Assembly (NCBI RefSeq): GCF_018873765.1
Contig: NC_057920.1
Coordinates: 11,607,307-11,671,306 of the forward strand
Direction of reading: 5' to 3'
DNA length: 64,000 nucleotides
DNA from: Telopea speciosissima
Lineage: Eukaryota > Streptophyta > Magnoliopsida > Proteales > Proteaceae
This document shows, in pieces, positions 3,888-63,927 of this stretch. The stretch's first letter is position 1. Every line of letters starts with the position of its first letter. The notes under the pieces were generated by a model that saw nothing but the letters and a program-made list of their open reading frames with translations, was not told where the DNA came from and made no database searches. Both the position numbers and the translations under genes were made by a program.

Positions 3888-4010
3888 ACGATTCCTTCGA
3901 TCCGCAACCAATTCTAAATCCCACTTTCCAAGACCATAAATGTCGTTGTCTGGATGATCATATGTCCTATCATAAATGTTTTTTTTTATTTTTCATTTAT
4001 TTTCGGATCA

Positions 4011-4188
4011 GGATCGTCTACGGCCTACTGCTTGTAGCAATCGTAGCAGCCTCCTAATGAGGCACGACACAATGACCGCCTTACCCCTGCTCGGGCAAGG
4101 TGCTCAAGCAGGGGTAAGGTGGTCATTGCACCACACCTCATTAGGAGGTTGCTACGGCTGCTACGGGCAGACAGGCCGTAGACGATCC
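4011..4188. repeat. Near-perfect 178-bp foldback (type A)
   Basis: GGATCGTCTACGGCCT at the left end is matched by AGGCCGTAGACGATCC at the right. GCCTCCTAATGAGGC is matched by CCTCATTAGGAGG further in. The centre holds AATGACCGCCTTACCCCTGC and its mirror GCAGGGGTAAGGTGGTCATT. The whole could fold into one long hairpin. Relatives with other arms lie at 19667-19852, 39222-39410 and 58409-58552. Confidence 0.8.
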
Positions 4189-4599
4189 AAATTCTTCATT
4201 TTCTGTGGTCGTTTTTGCTATACACAACCAAATTTTAAAGGGAAATTACATCCCCTGCCTTGAACTATGCCTAAATCATCATACCTCTTCCCATGTATTT
4301 TCAAAAATTACATAAACCTCCCTTATAGTTTAAAATATGTTAAATATAAGGAGATCTTTTTCCTTATATTTAATTCTTAAAATATCCTTCTGTCTTCCTC
4401 TTCTTCCTACCTCACCCCTTTGTAAATCGGATTTTCATCCTCTCAAGTGTGATGCACTCATTAAATATTGTTTTATTAAATTCAAAAATAGAAAAAAAAA
4501 AGAAATTAAAAAAAAAATTACAATAATAAAAAAGAGAAACGTTTACCCGATATCATAATATTATTTTACATTTTACTTTTCGTCCATTCCAACCCACCG

Positions 4600-5170
4600 A
4601 TACAGGATCCGGGACCACCGATACCTGTAGGATTCGTCTTAATCGATCACGAACGTCTCTTTTTGCATCTCTCAGTTCTTTCTTTTTGGATTGTTTGGGT
4701 AGTCATGATTCATGAATACAAGATTTTTGGTTTTGATCAATTTTTTTCCCCTGTTTTTTTTAAAAACTCATAAAATATCATATAAATCTCGTTTCATAGT
4801 TCCAATTAAGAACCGTAAATCCTATATCCATAACCTAAAAAAAGAAACGATCCCATAAAAGAGAACTGGAAAATTGTAAAAAGAGAAGGTAGCGATCGTA
4901 CGTTTACGTGTAGCATGCATGTGCACTATAGCACGGCTATAAAAAGATAATCTAGGTTTAAGTAAATTTTTTTTTGGTAATAATCTAGGTTTAAGTAAAG
5001 AGTTCCCGTTCCGTTGCACATATGGGTCAGTGAAATGACCACCTTACCCTTTCACTTGGATGCCTTTGCACGTTCCCATTGGCTCCCGTGTGGACTCCGC
5101 GTTGGCACAGACCACATAAGCTGGCACCAAACCCCTTCTCCAAGAAAATAGTTATAAAAATCAGAAATAT
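4600..5170. repeat. Dispersed repeat R, copy 1
   Basis: The most conserved part is about 5028-5147: GTGAAATGACCACCTTACCC, a CACGTTCCCATTGGCTCCCG-like stretch, then GGCACCAAACCCCTTCTCCA and AGAAAAT. Upstream are AAGAACCGTAAATCC and a TTCTTTCTTTTTGGATTGTT block also seen in the other copies. Copies 2 and 3 lie at about 6480-6950 and 7990-8250. I find no coding sequence. Confidence 0.6.
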
Positions 5171-5819
5171 TTCCCCTAGAAATCGGGTGAAAAATAGGAT
5201 TAGGGGATCCGTCATGATAGTGACTATTGATTTCTGTTTTTTTCAATCTTGTTTTTTTTTTCCCTTGATGTTGTTATTTCTATGAGCGATTCAATAGCCG
5301 ATCCGATAAATCTGGGATTTTAATAATTTTTTTTGCCAATGTAAGACTATTTTGACCTTTTTAGATCGATATCGGTCCTGACCGATCTCAAGATTAGGAA
5401 TCTTAGTTCCAAGTCACACCCTTGACCTAGGGGTATTAAGCGGTCAATTCAGCTCGGTTTCGATCGGGCTGAATCGGTGTCGGTCTCGGAATGAGTGAGA
5501 TCAAAACCAAACTGTTAAAAAACTTTGGTCGGTTTCGATTTCTGTCTAGTGCGATTTCGATTTATTTCATTTTTTCAATATCAGGTTAATACCGATTTAT
5601 ATCAATTTGAACCACAATGAAATCTTATTTTCATAGTTTGTAGTGAGAAAAGATAGGATAAAGACACTTTAATTCACCTTTCCCAAGTCAAAACAAGTAA
5701 ACAATCATGAATAAGATATGTTTATGTTGTAATTCGAACAAAAAATACATAAGGGAAAAAATTAAAAGATAACTAATATTTAAATCAATAGATAAATAGA
5801 GTTGGTAATGAAATCATTG

Positions 5820-6230
5820 TTACAAATCATGGGGAGGGGGAAGAGTGAGATGCATGGTTCAGCTAGGTTGGGGAGAAAAGTATCAATTTTACATAATAAC
5901 ACTATAACAAAATATATTTATATCATTTATTATCTTAATTTATAATATATTATATAACAAACTATGTGTAACGTTTAAAGTTTATAATATATATTTTATA
6001 GTATCTTACCAAAAAATATATATATATATTTTACAGTATAGCTTAAAACAGGGTTGGGTTAGGCTGGGCCGAGCTCAGGCCAAGGCCTCAACCCTAGCTC
6101 GTCCCGACCCTAAGTCAAGGTCAGAAATTTTCAGCCCTGACCCGCCCTCAGGGCCAAGGTATCTCAGCCCAGGCCCTACTTGAGGTCAGAGCGGGTTCGG
6201 GTCGACAAAGCAAAACTTGCACCCCTACCT
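5820..6230. repeat. Dispersed repeat S, copy 1 (partner at 47930-48450)
   Basis: It shares with 47930-48450 an AT-rich block (AACACTATAA, TATATCATTTATTATCTT, TATAATATATTATA, AGTTTATAATATATA). A GC-rich tail follows: GGCCTCAACCCTA, GGTCAGAAATTT, TTGACCCGCCCTCAGGGCC-like sequence and CTCAGCCCAGGCCCTA. The tail resembles the terminal regions of the TAGGGGTGTCAA hAT-like MITEs. It does not code. Confidence 0.6.
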
Positions 6231-6479
6231 GAGGGGGTATTTGTGAACCGAAAGGGGAAGGGAATTATTCCAAGTTGGACCCTGCAATTGGGGGCAGCAG
6301 GAACATGGGTTGTAACCAAAATTTTCCTCCACCACTGTGGGGTATGGGGAGGATCATGATGTACCCAACATTACCCCTACTTTCGTATTGAGTCTGTTTT
6401 CAAACTCGAACCCATGACCACTGGTCACAATAGAAACCCATTATTTCACCAGTAATATTCATCGATATCGAAAATGAAA

Positions 6480-6950
6480 AGGGAAATTAAAAAAAAAATC
6501 CTTGTATCCTCTCACAGAGGGTCAATGAAATGACCACCCTGCCCCTTCCCTTGGACGCCCTTACATGTTACCATTGGCTCCCGTGCTGGCTCTGCGCTAG
6601 CACCCAGGCCAAATATAGCCCAGCACCAAACCCCTTCCCTAAGAAAATGCAGTTATAAAAATGAGAACTGTTTCCAAGGGATATGAATATCGTTATAAGG
6701 ATATTGAGAAAAAGCCCAGTGCTGCCCCCACCTAGTTCCTATGAATGAGCTGAGCGCCTTCATTGTTTCATCGATCAATCACGACTTTCTCTTTCTCGAT
6801 TTCTTCAAGTTCTTTCTGTTTGAGGCCGTTTGGTTAGGTTTATTTCCCTATCGTGTTCGTGTTCCAATTAAGAACCGTAAATCCATAACCTAGCGAAACG
6901 ATCTCATACAGAAAGAACTTCAGGAAATTGGAAAAATAACGCGCAGAGTA
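6480..6950. repeat. Dispersed repeat R, copy 2
   Basis: Contains GAAATGACCACCCTGCCCC, ACCATTGGCTCCCGTG, CAGCACCAAACCCCTTCCC and AAGAAAATGCAGTTATAAAA, matching copy 1 block by block. Downstream are TTCTTCAAGTTCTTTCTGTT and AATTAAGAACCGTAAATCC. Confidence 0.6.
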
Positions 6951-7989
6951 TTAAATTATGGTTCACAGAACGGAAACAGGTTTCTCTTAAAACTTTAATT
7001 ATTATTATTTATGCAGAGTGGAGACCGGAGTATTAAATTTTTTTTTTTATTGATTTTTGATAATGGATTTCTTGTTCTTGATTTTGATAATAGTTTTCTC
7101 TTCCTCATTACCAAATCTGGAATTCTTAATATTTCTCCTTTTCAATTTAATCCATTGGGTTTATGTGCAGCTGCAAAGGTGCAGAATCGGAGACAAATCG
7201 GTCAGTAATTAGAATTGGTTCTTAAGAACCCTTGCATCAGTCCTCCGATCTGAACAGAGAATTTCAAATAGATTTTTGGATTTGAATCAGCTGTGTCAAA
7301 GCAGTTGGAATTAGAATTGGTCAAGTTACTGATTCTAATCAAAAGTTCGTATATTCTGATACGAATCGGTCGAGTCACCGATCCAATTCCTGGTTCTTGA
7401 AATCTTGTGGTGGAAGTTTTTTTTGGGTCGTTGACGATACAACGCATGTATAGAAATATTTTTTTGGAGGGTAGAAATACATGTATAAATTTTTTTCATC
7501 CAAAAAAAAAAAAAAAACAGCGTTTGATGGATCCCAAATTTTTGAAACCAAATTATACTACTAATAGGAATTAAATCTCATTGGAATCCATGACAACTCA
7601 TACTAAACATGACATTTAGAAATAAAAACCAATTTACCAAAAAAAAAAAAAAAAAAAAAACACAAGGAAATAACAAACCAAGGAATTTGTCTTAGGCAAA
7701 CTAACTTCACTGTTTTTATTCTAAGACAAACACTCCAATGGGACTAAGGTTTTAAAACAAGGAATTGGTGACGGAATCGTTACCTATTGATTTCTGATTT
7801 AAGATCGGATTGAGATCGGCCTGAATTGGTCCGAAAGACTTTACAATCCCCTTGGAATGATAGAAACCAGGGAATCTTGGCATGAATAAATATACTGATC
7901 CAAAACGACTGAAATTGAACAATTCTCGATCTGATTCTGATTTTTTGAAACCCTAAAAATGACCCTAACCAAGCAAAACAAACAATGAG

Positions 7990-8250
7990 TTTGCTTTTTC
8001 ACCAATCGCTACCGTCTCCATCTCTTCAAGTTATTTTCTTCTAGGATTGTTTGGGTAGAGGACATGCATATAGAAATTATGCTTTTGAAAATGAAAAGGG
8101 AAATTTTAAAAAATGGGAAATGACCACCCTACCCTCTCCTTGGATGCCCTTGCATGTTCCCACCGGCTTTCGTGTTGGTTCCGTGCTGGCACAGGGGCCA
8201 CATAGCTTGGCACCAAACCCCTTCCCCAAGAAAATACAGTTGTTCAGGAA
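7990..8250. repeat. Dispersed repeat R, copy 3
   Basis: Contains CTCTTCAAGTTATTTTCTTC and GGATTGTTTGGGTAGAGG, then GGAAATGACCACCCTACCC, TTGGATGCCCTTGCATGTTCCC and TTGGCACCAAACCCCTTCCC. This is the block order of copies 1 and 2, shortened. Confidence 0.6.
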
Positions 8251-9344: not shown

Positions 9345-12300
9345 CTAATCCAAGTCAGCAATCCTGCTCAAAAGGGAATTGACATTTGGGGTAACGATGG
9401 CGCGCTTGTCAGGCAACCCGAGGATGCAACAATGCTTCTCTTCAGTATTGACCGCCACAACATCTTGAGCAAATGCACAATCTGAACCTGGAGAAACCTA
9501 CACAATCGCCAAAAAATTAGGCACACCACAACAAAGCTGGTATATCATAAATTACACACATAATCTCAAACGCTCGTTGGCTTTGTGGGCCTTTGTTTAA
9601 GACTATTCTTGCAAGCAAGTATGTTAGGTTTGCTGGAAAAAAGAAGTCAATAACATGTGACATATGAGAGTTAATATATATGTGTGTAAATTCAATTTTA
9701 TATGTACACTACAAATAAAATTCATTTGATCTTTTATACCCAAAATAGGATATCAGTAACTTTTAGGAAGAAATCCAAAAAATAAAAGTCTGTTTCATCT
9801 TCATCTCCCTACATAGATAAGATTTCTTCTCGTGCACAGGTATTCTTCTTTTAGTGAGAAATATATAGTTAAGAGCTATATCTTGTACAAGTATAATAAA
9901 GTACAATCTCCAATAATTGTTAATAAAAGTTCTAGTATATATCCAACAACTATAATATGTTTTTTCTTCGTACAGTGTTGTTGAGGAAACCCAGGGGAAA
10001 AGATAAAGAATTAAAACTTTTGAAGAATGCTTAATTTGGACAAAAAAATAAGAGGTGCAAAATCATAGCCCCAAGAAAATAATTGTGGTATATACTCACA
10101 TCATAGAGGGTATCTCCAAGCTTCAGCTTGACTGCCCCACTTTTATACACTAGCATTTTACCCATTAGACCAGCTGATAATTGTTCCAAGCTGCAGCCTT
10201 TATCTGAAGAACCCACATTACTGGATGGTCCTGCACTTCCAGTTATCTGATTGCTCTCAGCAACCGCTGATCGCTTTACTAAAGGCAAAGATGTAGGCAA
10301 TTGAAAAAAGATCATTTTTTGTTCTTCTTGTTCTTCCTATCAAGAACCACAAGTAGCTGTTAAGAGAATCTGCATTCAGCATGCTATGTATTATTTCATC
10401 TTGAATTATCAAACTACCAACCATTAGCCCAAGCTCTATAGCTGAATTTGTAGAATATTCATTATTGGTTATGTTCGTAGAAGCCTCTCCGAATTCCTCC
10501 TCATCAAGAAACACTGTAAACAAATAGAGCAAGTCATATGCAAATCTACAGTCAGAGACAGAAGCTCCCTTCTGCATAATGAACATGCCAAGCCATTTTT
10601 TTTCTAAAGGGTACAGTGCGTTATAAAACTTCTAAAGTAATTCATTGCTTTCAAGATACACCATGAAACGTACCTGGGTTTCCTGAGTATGGTCTCCTCA
10701 GAGGAAGGGTGAGAGGATAGTAAGAACAATAATTCTGCAGTATCAGGGTGGAAAGGGAAGTAAAAAATGAATATGGAGATATAAGCTCTTCTTTTCTTTT
10801 TTCGATGTATGAAATATTGTGGTCTGTGGAAATGCATGAGTCACAATATTACTTACCCATGGTTCTATGTATTCTTTCTCCAACATGTGGCTTGACATGT
10901 TAGCACCATCTGCAGAAACAAAATGGTAAGGGTTACGTGCATTTAAATGGCAGGGTCAGTTAGATTTCAAGATGGAAAAGGAAGGACCATAAGAAACTGA
11001 ACCTTGAGATCTGCTAGCACCAGCCCCTCTGGGAGGGCCATATGACCTCATAAAATTTGATGCTTGTCCTTGACCAAATGCAACTTGCACAGGTGCCGCT
11101 GCAAGTTCAAAAACCAAAAAACGGTTAATACAAAAAGTGATTAATCAAGTTGACAATGTATAAGCTAACCAATAAAGATCTTTCTATTTTGGGAGGGATG
11201 GTTTTTTTGTATAAACCCAATTTAATATTTGGGAAGGAGTTTTCTGTCCGGGAGTGTGGCCTACGCCAGCACTCCCATGTGTTTATCTCTCTCCTCCTCA
11301 AAACAAGGGGGCAAAAGTGTCTTTTCATATAGGGAGGAGAGAGATAGACTCGTGGGACTGGGAGTGTTAGTGTAGGCCACACACCCAGGCAGAGTTCTTT
11401 TTCCCTTAATTTTTTTTAATAAGTAACCCCAATATCCGGTGCTAATGTCCAACACACAGTTTCCTATTAGACCCATCTTTCCAGAAGGCCCTAATGTTTT
11501 CTTTAAGTTCTTGAAATACATAATTTTTATTGCTACTTTTTAGTCCAATGTATAAAACATCACTTGCTCCCAATCAACAAGAAAAATAAATAATTAAATC
11601 ATTTTCAAACCCTAAGCTAAACCTCGGCAACCCTCTCATTGTCTAACTTCTGATAAGTGAGTTAAAAAAAGCACTCAACCAAAACATGTGGGAATACCTA
11701 GATCATTAAAACTGAACTCTTGATCAACATAAGTAATTCACCTCAAGTCAAACATTTTCTTTTTTGATTAGTTTTTAATTTAGTTAGAACAATGTCATCC
11801 AACAAGCAACAAATCCTATTTCACTTTACTAGAACACTTATTCTTCTCTTTAGCGTCACTGATTCCATTAGGACATATGCAATACAATTTATAATTTCAT
11901 CCTAGTGGACAAAAATTAGTCATGAAAGGCGTAAGTCCACTTGGAAAAAGAAAAATGTTGGTTTGATAATTGCCAATAGCGAACAAATCCAATTGTTTAT
12001 GGATAAAAAGTGATGCATTGAATTCCCAGGACCCCATTTACTTCAACAGGAAGAAAAAGAAAACCATGAAAAAACAAATTTTATTTATTATGTTTCCTGA
12101 CAAGAAACATATTAGGCACTGTTGTGTGCAGAAAAGCATCCATTGATGTGATGGGGTTTAGCGTCTTTCGTGGCTAGCAGTTGCATCATTCTCTACAATA
12201 CAACCACCTTTTTTTGGGGGTGGGGGAGGAAAAGACATCAAAAAAAATTAAATTAGAATATTTTCCAAAATTTGAATTGCATTTCAGTAATAATTTATTT

Positions 12301-19080: not shown

Positions 19081-19666
19081 AATGGCAATGAGAATGATGG
19101 TCGAGAGAATTCTTCCGTTGATACCCTTTCTCTCCACTTGTGATTTGGGTTGGGTAGGTTTTATCGGGAACGATATTTTTTTTCCTTCAATTGTTCTCGT
19201 AAATATGGACTTCCCATCTACAGAACATGTAAAACTATTTTTTTTTGGGTAGAACAGAACATGTGAAACTTGTTCATTTGAGGGTTTTTGTCCCAGTTTA
19301 TTCTATGAGAACAGAAGAACAAATCAGATTTGCCAAATGGTTTTTGGGTGCTCTTATGTTTCCACAGAACAAAAGAATAGAAGAACTGTTCTGCGGGAGA
19401 GTTACCAAACGTAACCTAAATGGGTCCAGTTTTATGTGTTGAAACCATAAATAGATCTATTTGATTTTGGCTTCATTCCATAAAACCCCCACCTGAAACC
19501 AATCTATTAAGAATTAAATTTTATTCAATTCGATCAGGGCTCAATCAATCGGTTCAGTCGATCCAACCAGTTCGGGCTGAACTTTGACACGCCTCCACCT
19601 TGCTCTTTTGGGTTTGTTGTGCTATTATTATTCCCAACCAATTCGTTTAAATGGTATCACATTTAG

Positions 19667-19852
19667 GATCCAGATCTTCTATGGTGTGGTGCCCGTAGCG
19701 GTCTGTGAGGCACAGACTGGGCTGCACATGCAATGACCGCCTTATCCCTGCTTGGGCAAGGCGTTTGGACAGAGGTAAGGTAGTCATTGTGCGCACGGTT
19801 CAGTTTGCGCCGCTCAGGCCGCTACAGGCAGCACGCTGTAGAGGATCTGAAT
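19667..19852. repeat. Foldback (type A, GTGGTGCCCGTAGCGG arms)
   Basis: The outer arms ATCCAGATCTTCTA and CTGTAGAGGATCTGAAT enclose CCCGTAGCGG / CCGCTACAGG. The core AATGACCGCCTTATCCCTGC pairs with AGAGGTAAGGTAGTCATTG. It is the same design as 4011-4188 but more diverged. Upstream, 19500-19600 has GGTTCAGTCGATCC and TTTGACACGCC words of the hAT-like MITE type. Confidence 0.7.
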
Positions 19853-20070
19853 TGTCACGTTTATGGCCCCTATTGGAATCTGGCTTCTCAAACCTGTCTG
19901 AGAAACTTACCCAAACATTCAACCATGCCGTGAAAAAAGAAGTGAAGAAATTCACTAAATATCGTTACAAGTCCCTAAATCAGAACCAAGAATAGAAGGA
20001 TGAGAGTAAGACATGGTAGCAACAAATTAATATGATTCCTAAACAAAATCCCATTCCTGAGTTTGTCTAA

Positions 20071-39221: not shown

Positions 39222-39410
39222 AGATCCAGATCCTCTATTGCCGAGCTGTCCGGTAGAACGGTACTGCCAAGACATAGCAAGGTGAGGAATGATCGCCTTG
39301 CCCCTTCTCAAGTGCCTTGCTCGAGCAGATAGAAGGCGATCATTGCACACCTCGCCATGTCTAGGTAGCACGGTCCTACTGGGCAGCTCGGCAATAGAGG
39401 ATCCAAATTG
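39222..39410. repeat. Foldback (type A core) inserted in the serpin 2 promoter
   Basis: The arms ATCCTCTATTGCCGAGCTG and CAGCTCGGCAATAGAGGAT pair exactly; GACATAGCAAGGTGAGGAATGA pairs with the right arm less exactly. The core is AATGATCGCCTTGCCCCTTC. It sits exactly between orphan SKIP exon 1 and the G-boxes, where unit A has no such element, so it inserted after the duplication or was lost from A. Confidence 0.8.
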
Positions 39411-46535: not shown

Positions 46536-46668
46536 TAAACCGAAATACTTTGAAGAAGCAAAAATCAATGAATTTTAATTTTACCAAAATTAAGTTGTTA
46601 GGGACTTGGGTGGAATTTTAATCCTACCATACCACCATGAAAAAAACAAAAATCCTCTGCAGTGCCTT

Positions 46669-46840
46669 AATCTTGTGGTGCCTTGCAGTTCGGGCCTGAA
46701 TGCTTGACACGTGGAAGATGCGACATCCAATGATGCCAAGCTCAAGAAGAAAAAAATGGGTCAATCGGGCTCGCACTGTTGGATGAAGCATCTTCCACGT
46801 GTCAAGCTCTCAGACTCAAACTGCAAGGCACCGCAAGATG
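46669..46840. repeat. Foldback (type C) with CACGTGG in the arms
   Basis: The left arm at 46669-46722 (ATCTTGTGGTGCCTTGCAGTT ... CTTGACACGTGGAAGATG) pairs with the right arm at 46787-46840 (CATCTTCCACGTGTCAAG ... AACTGCAAGGCACCGCAAGAT). The loop is about 64 bp. Direct copies of GTTAGGGACTTGG lie on both sides (about 46600 and 46899). Confidence 0.75.
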
Positions 46841-46977
46841 AAAAAATTGCCGAGAATTTTAATCCCACTACCATTGTCTTTGCTTTGATACTACTTGTTA
46901 GGGACTTGGATAGAACTTTATCCTTAAATTTTAAAACATAGTTGTTTAAGAGAGGTTGCTTAAATTCTTATAAAGAT

Positions 46978-47152
46978 TAGGGAAGCAGTTTTCTGTACAG
47001 GAGTGCTGGCGTAGGCCAGCACTCCCATGAGTCTATCTCTCTCCTCCTTAAAATAAGGTGGCAAAGGTGTCTTTTCACATGGGGAGGAAAGAGATAGACT
47101 CATGGGAGTGCTGGCGTAGGCCACACTCCTGGAGAGAGATCTTTTTCCCTAA
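46978..47152. repeat. Foldback (type B), cleaner copy of 11228-11405
   Basis: The left arm (TTTTCTGTACAGGAGTGCTG, GCACTCCCATGAGTCTATCT) is mirrored by the right arm (AGATAGACTCATGGGAGTGC, GCCACACTCCTGG). The centre GGTGGCAAAGGTGTCTTTTC matches the centre of the RPC4 intron copy. Confidence 0.8.
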
Positions 47153-48619: not shown

Positions 48620-48900
48620 CTCTTTTATTGGCCGTAGTTGCTAGCTCTAGAAAAGGGACCTTTATCCGTTGCTGTAACTGGAGCGCTGCTGTGCGCATTG
48701 TGCGGCACTGCAATGGCCATGTGTGCACTTACGCACAACAGTGCTGCAGCAGCCATGTGTGCACAGTGGGGCCCGCTGTGCATACATGGCCACTGCTACG
48801 CCGCACGATACGCACAGCAACGCTCCAGTTAGGCCCCACTGTGCACACATGGCCATTGTTGTGCCGCACGATGCGCACAGCAGCACTCCAGTTACAACAG
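48620..48900. repeat. GC-rich compound foldback (three-arm, type D)
   Basis: CTGGAGCGCTGCTGTGCGCA, then GTGCGGCACTGCAATGGCCA and TGTGTGCAC on the left, is mirrored twice on the right: about 48780-48832 (ATGGCCACTGCTACGCCGCA, CGATACGCACAGC, GCTCCAGTT) and 48840-48892 (CACACATGGCCATTGTTGTG, CCGCACGATGCGCACAGCAG). One left arm and two right arms give alternative hairpins. The open frames across it on both strands are by-products of the repeat. Confidence 0.7.
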
Positions 48901-49247
48901 CAGATAAAAATTCCAAGAAAAGCCAGCAAAATGTTCACAAATTTTTTAAAAAATTACTTAAAAAAATCTCATTATGTTTTTTAAATTAAAATAAAATTTT
49001 ATTTCCCAACTATATGTCAAACAAATGGAGCCGTAAGAGATAAGTAATGGTACCTCTTAGGTGCCGACATGTAGAAAATGGTGGCATGACCGTAATTTTA
49101 TATGGACGGAGTGGGATAATTTTTGGATTTCAAAATTCTTCTAAGGTATGCAACTTCCTGAAACTTAGAGGCTGAGAGTGAAGGACTAACCCGGCTTTGA
49201 AGTAGCCCATGCTTTGGCTCCTCGTTACAGACAAAACCATAAAATGC

Positions 49248-58408: not shown

Positions 58409-58552
58409 ATGCACTAATGAGTCACGCTGCAATGATTGCCTTACCCTCATTTGGACAAGGCACCGGGCAGGGTAAGGCGGTTATTACGCCATGCCTCATT
58501 AGGGTGCTGTTCTGACCGCTACGGGCAGGCAGACCGTAGACAATCTGGATTG
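58409..58552. repeat. Truncated foldback (type A)
   Basis: AATGATTGCCTTACCCTCAT pairs with CAGGGTAAGGCGGTTATT, and ACTAATGAGTC with GCCTCATTAGGG. The right arm continues GACCGCTACGGGCAGGCAGA, then CCGTAGACAATCTGGAT, as at 4150-4188, but its left partner is missing. Confidence 0.65.
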
Positions 58553-61876: not shown

Positions 61877-62014
61877 GGGAGAATGTTCTTTGTGCCGTAG
61901 CGTAGGCTGCGCCCAGGCACATGGGCCTGCCACTTAGGGGGGTAGGGTGGTCATTGCGCCCACCCCCATGTGCCTAAGCTCAGCCTGCGCTGCGGCACAG
62001 AGAACATCGCCCCT
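61877..62014. repeat. Foldback, well-kept copy of 1848-1985
   Basis: GAGAATGTTCTTTGTGCCG and GTAGCGTAGGCTGCGCCCAG pair with CTCAGCCTGCGCTGCGGCAC and AGAGAACATCG; CACATGGGCC pairs with CCCATGTGCC. The centre GGGTAGGGTGGTCATTGCGC carries the shared core. Confidence 0.75.
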
Positions 62015-63784: not shown

Positions 63785-63927
63785 AAGAGAACGCCACCTG
63801 GTCGCCGCCCTGCCCCTGACACAAGGGCACGTGAAATGACCGTTGTATAACGTAGAACCCCGGAAATGAACATCACCTGGTCGTGGTCCCTATACGTGTC
63901 AGATGCAACCGGGTGGTGTTCTTTCTC
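63785..63927. repeat. Foldback with GGTGGTGTTCT arms
   Basis: AAGAGAACGCCACCTGGTCG pairs with CAACCGGGTGGTGTTCTTT. Inside are CACCTGGTCG repeated at 63868 and GTGAAATGACCGTTG, again close to the shared AATGACC core. Confidence 0.55.

Follow-up and report, generated by a model that had tools for sequence, protein, structure and literature searches.

The stretch of DNA analysed here, 64,000 nucleotides of the Telopea speciosissima genome (the window), has three strong foldbacks, at 4011, 19667 and 39222, and a shorter fourth at 58409. They raise the question of which part of such an element moves and how its two arms come to match. An earlier note had seen in the window seven hairpins with unlike outer arms around one shared core, conserved without conserved termini, and had suggested that the core is the mobile or replicated part, or that arms were recurrently captured.

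The core motif and its carriers

We found that the core AATGACCRCCTTACC is matched 11 times in the window with at most two mismatches, against 0.12 expected from shuffles (sd 0.33). In the 823-Mb genome (1287 contigs), the exact motif occurs 2260 times (1118 + 1142), against 6 (2 + 4) for the reversed control. The form AATGACCNNNTTACCCC gave 3007 genome matches and 1 in the control; among 100 matches listed, its NNN positions are mostly ACC or GCC, the remainder being mostly one or two steps off, and it therefore looks like a single specific sequence in decay. Two cores facing each other 5–35 bp apart were found at 190 places in the genome and at none in the control.

The carriers of the core were sampled at the first 61 exact sites listed, all in the first 11.7 Mb of contig C1. 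Fifty of them were read (loci L001–L008 and L053–L092), and the other 11 lie in elements of the foldback family, here FB, that had been fetched otherwise (L038–L042, L012). Among the 50 sites read, a script flagged FB ends at 31 and five more were recognized as FB by eye, some of them truncated; the rest were assigned by eye to family F3 (nine sites) or to an F2-like family (three), and two could not be placed. FB thus accounts for 47 of the 61 sampled sites in total, and 59 lie within FB, F3 or F2-like elements (mostly by eye), the remaining two being without such arms. A superfamily with a common core, as claimed in the earlier note, is borne out by these counts, since F3 and F2-like elements carry the core as well. 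In one hairpin (L002:1400-1700), the core motif by eye faces inward, with GGTCATTTC towards the centre, the reverse of FB.

Within the window, the core (at most two mismatches) is two-sided at 4011, 19667 and 58409 and one-sided at 39222 and 61941, and it is also found at 5034, 6529 and 8119. The hairpins contain a loop of the GCAAGG/CCTTGC type, as had been noticed before. The FB copy of subfamily a6 (locus L009) spans 4005–4194, with octamers at 4005–4012 and 4187–4194, arms at 4013–4070 and 4128–4186 and the core with loop at 4071–4127; its 9-bp target duplication (3996–4004, partner 4195–4203) matches at 8/9 positions. The copy of subfamily b4 spans 19666–19854 (octamers 19666–19673 and 19847–19854, arms 19674–19731 and 19789–19846, core with loop 19732–19788), and its duplication (19657–19665 and 19855–19863) matches at 8/9 as well. 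In turn, the copy of subfamily c10 spans 39222–39410 (octamers 39222–39229 and 39403–39410, arms 39230–39287 and 39345–39402, core with loop 39288–39344), and no target duplication was seen there, the flanking 9-mers matching at 2/9 positions. Both ends of these three copies read [octamer]ATCNTCTAY, and their arms are 58 or 59 bp long. The earlier note had placed the c10 copy exactly, while the true borders of the other two lie slightly outside those it gave. The fourth foldback, 58414–58552, is by eye an a6-type FB element with a truncated left arm, in which only the right end is kept (core 58431–58485, right arm 58486–58544, octamer 58545–58552).

An F2 MITE with ends of the GTTCTCTGTG type lies at 61877–62014 and has a one-sided core on the minus strand (61941–61955). 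The decayed hairpin at 1848–1985 resembles F2, or a relative of the 61877 element, by eye (this hairpin and the F2 and FB features, with the a6 duplication, are given without strand). The window scan found no core within two mismatches at 1848–1985 or at 63785–63927, the latter having only AAATGACC and looking like a different hairpin. Of the hairpins first described, those at 4011, 19667, 39222, 58409 and 61877 have the shared core. It was also rightly noticed in repeat R, with matches within two mismatches at 5034–5048 (plus strand), 6529–6543 and 8119–8133. This repeat has three copies in about 3 kb of the window (5028–8250) and one about 47 kb upstream (C5:11565105), i.e., four within about 50 kb; the other 28 matches to the repeat R query are partial and cover mostly bases 20–90 (some to 139–162). 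Repeat R is mainly local, a duplication in which one piece carries the core. Strong inverted repeats with other sequences lie at 11231–11405, 46649–46860, 47007–47123 and 48661–48908 and are perhaps further MITE families.

FB ends, target sites and related families

The FB plan was read from 65 usable elements, left from 75 registers listed after 10 in which the arm contained the core were dropped; they had been picked partly by exact core, with ATCNTCTA required within one mismatch and the core within four. The order is an octamer, ATCNTCTA, a mid-arm and the core with loop, followed by the same parts inverted. Arms are mostly 58–59 bp long across groups (range 40–72 among the elements kept), and the usual length of the core with loop is 57 bp, with 38 or 44 bp in some elements. 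The octamer pair is asymmetric, with GGATCNNG on one side and CAATTNNG on the other, and is degenerate in some copies. In every FB group, ATCNTCTA stands behind the octamer at both ends, so that a conserved core without conserved termini is not what these elements have. Of the 68 copies obtained from whole-element searches, 67 carry ATCNTCTA within the two mismatches allowed in that set.

At the border fixed by the octamers, the flanking 9-mers match at 7 or more of 9 positions in 41 of the 65 copies, against 0.6% of 4160 mis-paired flanks; 24 copies are without a 9-bp duplication at this level, and the count becomes 38 of 62 after three copies from one duplicated block are dropped. The target duplications looked for at the arm ends are hence there in the larger part of the copies. 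With the best border common to a set, 8 of 20 c10 copies chosen by similarity to 39222 (mis-paired, 1/380) and 7 of 20 b4 copies chosen by similarity to 19667 (mis-paired, 0/380) match at 8 or 9 of the 9 positions. The 8-bp, 3-bp and TA duplications of hAT, PIF/Harbinger and Tc1/Mariner elements were not found at FB and F2, where the match spans 9 bp at a fixed border. A looser 8-bp count (at least 7/8) compares with the 9-bp count as 9 to 8 in c10 and 8 to 7 in b4, is equal in F2 and is 5/11 to 3/11 in F3; an 8-bp duplication of the hAT type is thus possible for F3 alone. The FB duplication is of the MULE type.

FB elements are about 190 bp long, and one query had 1470 first-look candidates, of which 40 were scored and nearly all were full length. 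For each of the three FB queries, the great majority of the 40 scored copies match over nearly the whole length, and 29 (other than the query), 20 and 20 of them were fetched for the consensuses. Both strands of most copies match the query, i.e., the elements are mostly palindromic TIR, as in foldback MULEs. Being short, of high copy number and furnished with TIRs and a target duplication, they are MITEs, and at about 190 bp they are expected to be non-coding. Because the 9-bp duplications lie at the arm ends and copies are nearly full length, the mobile unit is the whole FB element and not the core.

FB copies tend to abut, with facing ends unusually close. Facing FB ends 0–30 bp apart were found at 43 places (2 in the reversed control), which reduce to 33 when places within 150 kb are collapsed, and a spacing of 50–80 bp was found at 6 places (1 in the reversed control); these are counts of end patterns, which need not all belong to full FB elements, and a few could be due to chance. 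The spacing at the 33 collapsed places is at most 9 bp in 12, 10–17 bp in 13 and 18–30 bp in 8. At L008:1435-1828, two FB copies from different groups have the 9-bp target in common, and it is present three times. At G000:C2:63020017-63022056, seven facing-end junctions have the same 5-bp spacer and follow each other at intervals of 194 to 548 bp (about multiples of 180–194), which may be a small tandem array.

For families F3 and F2, 10 copies each were fetched of 40 scored each. F3 has the ends GGATCTTTATCCCCTGCGG and GGAAAATTATCTCC; a 45-bp core-loop is common to F3 and FB (score 28, maximum of 300 shuffles 16), and the GGATC end of F3 equals one form of the FB end at 14/19 positions by eye. 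At a fixed 9-bp border, at least 8/9 positions match in 3 of 11 F3 copies (mis-paired, 0/110), or in about 8 of 11 at the 7-of-9 level by eye when the right border is allowed to move by a single base. In F2, at least 8/9 positions match in 9 of 10 copies (mis-paired, 3/90), and the targets are AT-rich. Identity of the F2 and FB cores over the whole length was considered and rejected, as the best alignment score was 14 and the shuffle maximum 17; F2 has only the short motif in common with FB.

As for an autonomous partner, the MULE transposase domain PF10551 gave 150 scored matches of 826 candidates, many of them in long open frames. No inverted pair of FB ends was found around the transposase in the three MULE-domain stretches read (9.0–9.8 kb). 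In one of the loci (L154), a separate full FB copy lies about 4 kb from the MULE domain, over which runs a 763-aa frame that looks FAR1-like. A half element (L060, extended as L153) adjoins other MITE-like inverted repeats, and no second arm was found in 8 kb.

Arms, core and loop orientation

Of the steps proposed in the earlier note, the genome-wide core search gave the 2260 exact sites, and clustering by arms, done on the 65 elements, gave 12 groups, five of which have at least four members. In all five, the consensus arm of either side is matched best by that of the other side (0.78–0.96, against 0.47–0.76 between groups; shuffled-arm baseline 0.47, sd 0.06, maximum 0.62), with a small margin in groups 3 and 4 (0.80 and 0.78 against 0.76 between groups). 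Copies picked by whole-element similarity (one of 21 b4 copies was lost, and three duplicates and a second record of the 4011 copy were left out) have own two arms identical at 0.82 in a6, 0.78 in c10 and 0.72 in b4. Between subfamilies, identity is 0.52–0.61 for same-side arms and equally 0.52–0.61 for opposite-side arms. That same-side arms are not closer across subfamilies argues against a palindrome formed once, with arms that then evolved apart.

The consensus arms of a6, b4 and c10 are identical at 26–38 of 50–51 positions between subfamilies. For a6 and c10 the figure is 26–28 of 50–51, barely above shuffled arms (0.45, sd 0.06), so that their common descent rests on constant length and intermediate groups and not on that alignment. 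The description of the outer arms as unlike is overstated: the ends of the 4011, 19667 and 39222 copies are alike, their arms are 58 or 59 bp long, and the 58409 copy is by eye of the 4011 type. Recurrent capture of arms from host DNA finds no support in these data, the arms being nearly constant in length and still partly alignable between subfamilies.

In a tree of 54 arms (27 of 67 copies; alignment of 58 columns, most forks open), the c10 arms of both sides form one clade (100/100), as do those of a6, with only 53/100. The b4 arms were not recovered as one clade, and a one-clade constraint was not rejected either (p-AU 0.36). A single clade of all GGATC-side arms was rejected (p-AU 0.0005), side labels being an imperfect marker of descent in this test, as the octamers and the interior can change their relative orientation. 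Since arms within subfamilies are 72–82% alike and the GGATC-side clade is rejected, FB arms seem, from these comparisons, to change in concert on both sides. The counter-case that the earlier note had named, a single ancestral element whose ends are conserved and which otherwise only decays at random, fits the ends but not fully the arms, both of which appear to have changed together in each subfamily. A copy's own arms are about as alike as its same-side arms and those of other copies of the subfamily (0.83 in a6, 0.77 in c10 and 0.74 in b4), so that there is little or no sign of pairing being maintained once an element has inserted. Arm exchange, if it occurs, must therefore take place mainly in the source lineage. 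By eye, the FB arms of L080 and L073 look like a mosaic of group 10 (start) and group 9 (middle), in L080 on both arms. Subfamilies may have exchanged segments of their arms.

The core was judged on copies picked by whole-element similarity, since the copies in the group profiles were partly core-picked. Between consensuses, the core with loop agrees at 53 (a6–b4), 55 (a6–c10) and 53 (b4–c10) of its 57 positions in the better orientation, i.e., 93–96%, and the five well-populated arm groups have one core-loop in common. The 19667 and 39222 copies have degenerate cores themselves, whereas their relatives give a canonical or nearly canonical consensus (a single base is changed in b4), and thus the query did not impose the core. 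Within subfamilies, non-CpG variation is 0.003–0.034 in the ATCNTCTA ends, 0.046–0.070 in the core stems, 0.055–0.140 in the loop and 0.079–0.149 in the arms; in c10, variation is as high in the loop as in the arms. The lower variation of core and ends than of arms may partly reflect sub-subfamilies.

The FB loop is asymmetric, with CAAGG on one strand. Relative to the octamers, concordant and discordant orientations number 23:2 in a6, 1:18 in c10 and 4:16 in b4 (3 of the 67 whole-element-picked copies could not be oriented). In an earlier, partly core-picked sample, the split was less clear-cut, with ratios of 26:1 in group 6, 5:4 in group 10, 3:2 in group 4, 3:1 in group 3 and 1:4 in group 9. 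Both orientations exist in either sample, and minority copies occur inside subfamilies. A crossover between inverted FB arms would invert the loop.

Possible origins of the matched arms and known relatives

FB is probably a superfamily of non-autonomous, palindromic MULE-type MITEs that is moved in trans, with arms that would exchange sequence and a core that would be under selection. A MULE transposase would act in trans on the FB ends, ATCNTCTACNGC behind the asymmetric octamer (GGATCNNG / CAATTNNG), and insertion would make the 9-bp target duplication. Because the element is a palindrome, sequence could be exchanged between its two arms in the source lineage by conversion or crossover, e.g., in repair or replication by way of a cruciform or hairpin. 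Any change arising in one arm would then be copied to the other, so that arms diverge between lineages and stay matched within one, and crossovers would invert the loop relative to the ends. Selection on transposition may keep the core almost unchanged, the reason being either a second binding site for the transposase or a host factor or a structural need.

Matched arms could also be obtained by repeated formation of new palindromes or by structural selection, and conversion is the route that we infer. Each subfamily might have been formed anew from the long matched TIRs of an autonomous MULE of its own, either through an internal deletion or through a half element being duplicated in inverted orientation; no arm-to-arm exchange inside the MITE would be needed. 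Arms matched within subfamilies and unlike between them would follow, and in the available excerpts on the foldback MULE Tm1, TIRs are about 93% identical within an element (PMC3169594). We regard this as unlikely, since the three FB subfamilies have one asymmetric loop and 57-bp core in common (53–55/57), and independent joins should give different centres. Less likely still is selection on the folded strand, in which compensatory changes would keep the arms complementary for a hairpin RNA as a source of small RNAs or for a DNA hairpin required in transposition. It agrees with the pairing of arms at 72% in 14 same-length copies, against 55–61% in three random re-pairings of halves, but not with own arms being about as alike as same-side arms of other copies; the window also gave no Rfam match at gathering level, either for such a folded RNA or for a miRNA precursor.

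We consider it very improbable that it is the core that moves or is replicated, with new arms acquired from the neighbouring DNA. Such a core would readily be common to FB, F3, F2-like elements and a few unplaced repeats; however, target duplications lie at the arm ends, arm length is nearly fixed, the ends are conserved, and nearly all sampled exact-core sites fall within the three kinds of element. As for the MULE-type MITE with exchanging arms, we can put forward, tentatively and as a possibility that we do not favour, a further-reaching version of it, a self-proofreading palindromic transposon. Its arms would repeatedly recombine by conversion and loop inversion, and arm sequence would be replaced on both sides at once with the ends and the 57-bp core fixed. 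Several MULE MITE families would share the core as an additional, indispensable recognition site, and insertion of new copies would be directed next to existing ones.

To our knowledge, the means by which palindromic transposons keep their arms matched have been assumed more often than measured. Neither concerted arm evolution nor a conserved core in palindromic MULE MITEs was found in the titles and abstract openings listed by literature searches, which is no proof of absence. The part of FB worth following comprises the concerted arms, the constant core and the loop inversions. With several subfamilies on one centre and with asymmetric ends and loop as orientation markers, FB lets arm-to-arm exchange, loop inversion and internal-core constraint be counted separately, and its core flags an internal conserved site that is a candidate for binding by the transposase or a host factor.

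The nearest known systems are MuTAnT and Tm1. In the available excerpts of its description, MuTAnT of Medicago truncatula (PMC4486113) comprises Mutator-like foldback elements, first described at 292 bp, that target TA microsatellites and have an autonomous member. Like FB, they are short, consist almost wholly of near-identical long TIRs that fold back, fall into subfamilies, belong to the MULE class and have 9-nt target duplications where these are not hidden in TA repeats (PMC4486113). Those excerpts give two subfamilies and describe no conserved central core or loop inversion (PMC4486113). In contrast, FB is about 190 bp long and has five well-populated arm groups, and neither a TA-microsatellite target nor an autonomous member was found for it. 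Tm1, a Mutator/Foldback element of root-knot nematodes, is similar to FB in its asymmetric 7-bp outer-end motifs inside 9-bp duplications, MITE-like members and matched TIRs, as far as the excerpted account goes (PMC3169594). Yet its TIRs have a variable number of 13–15 bp tandem repeats (PMC3169594), while FB has arms of mostly 58–59 bp and a constant core at the centre. Long palindromic ends are also known from the FARE foldback elements of Arabidopsis, now counted among MULEs according to the same MuTAnT excerpts (PMC4486113) and named in those on Tm1 (PMC3169594) as well. Drosophila Foldback4, in the part of its description at hand (PMC2955051), is palindromic, modular and non-autonomous like FB, but most of its ten copies shown have palindromic termini longer than 400 bp, and the variation lies inside; in FB, the centre is kept and the variation lies in the mid-arm.
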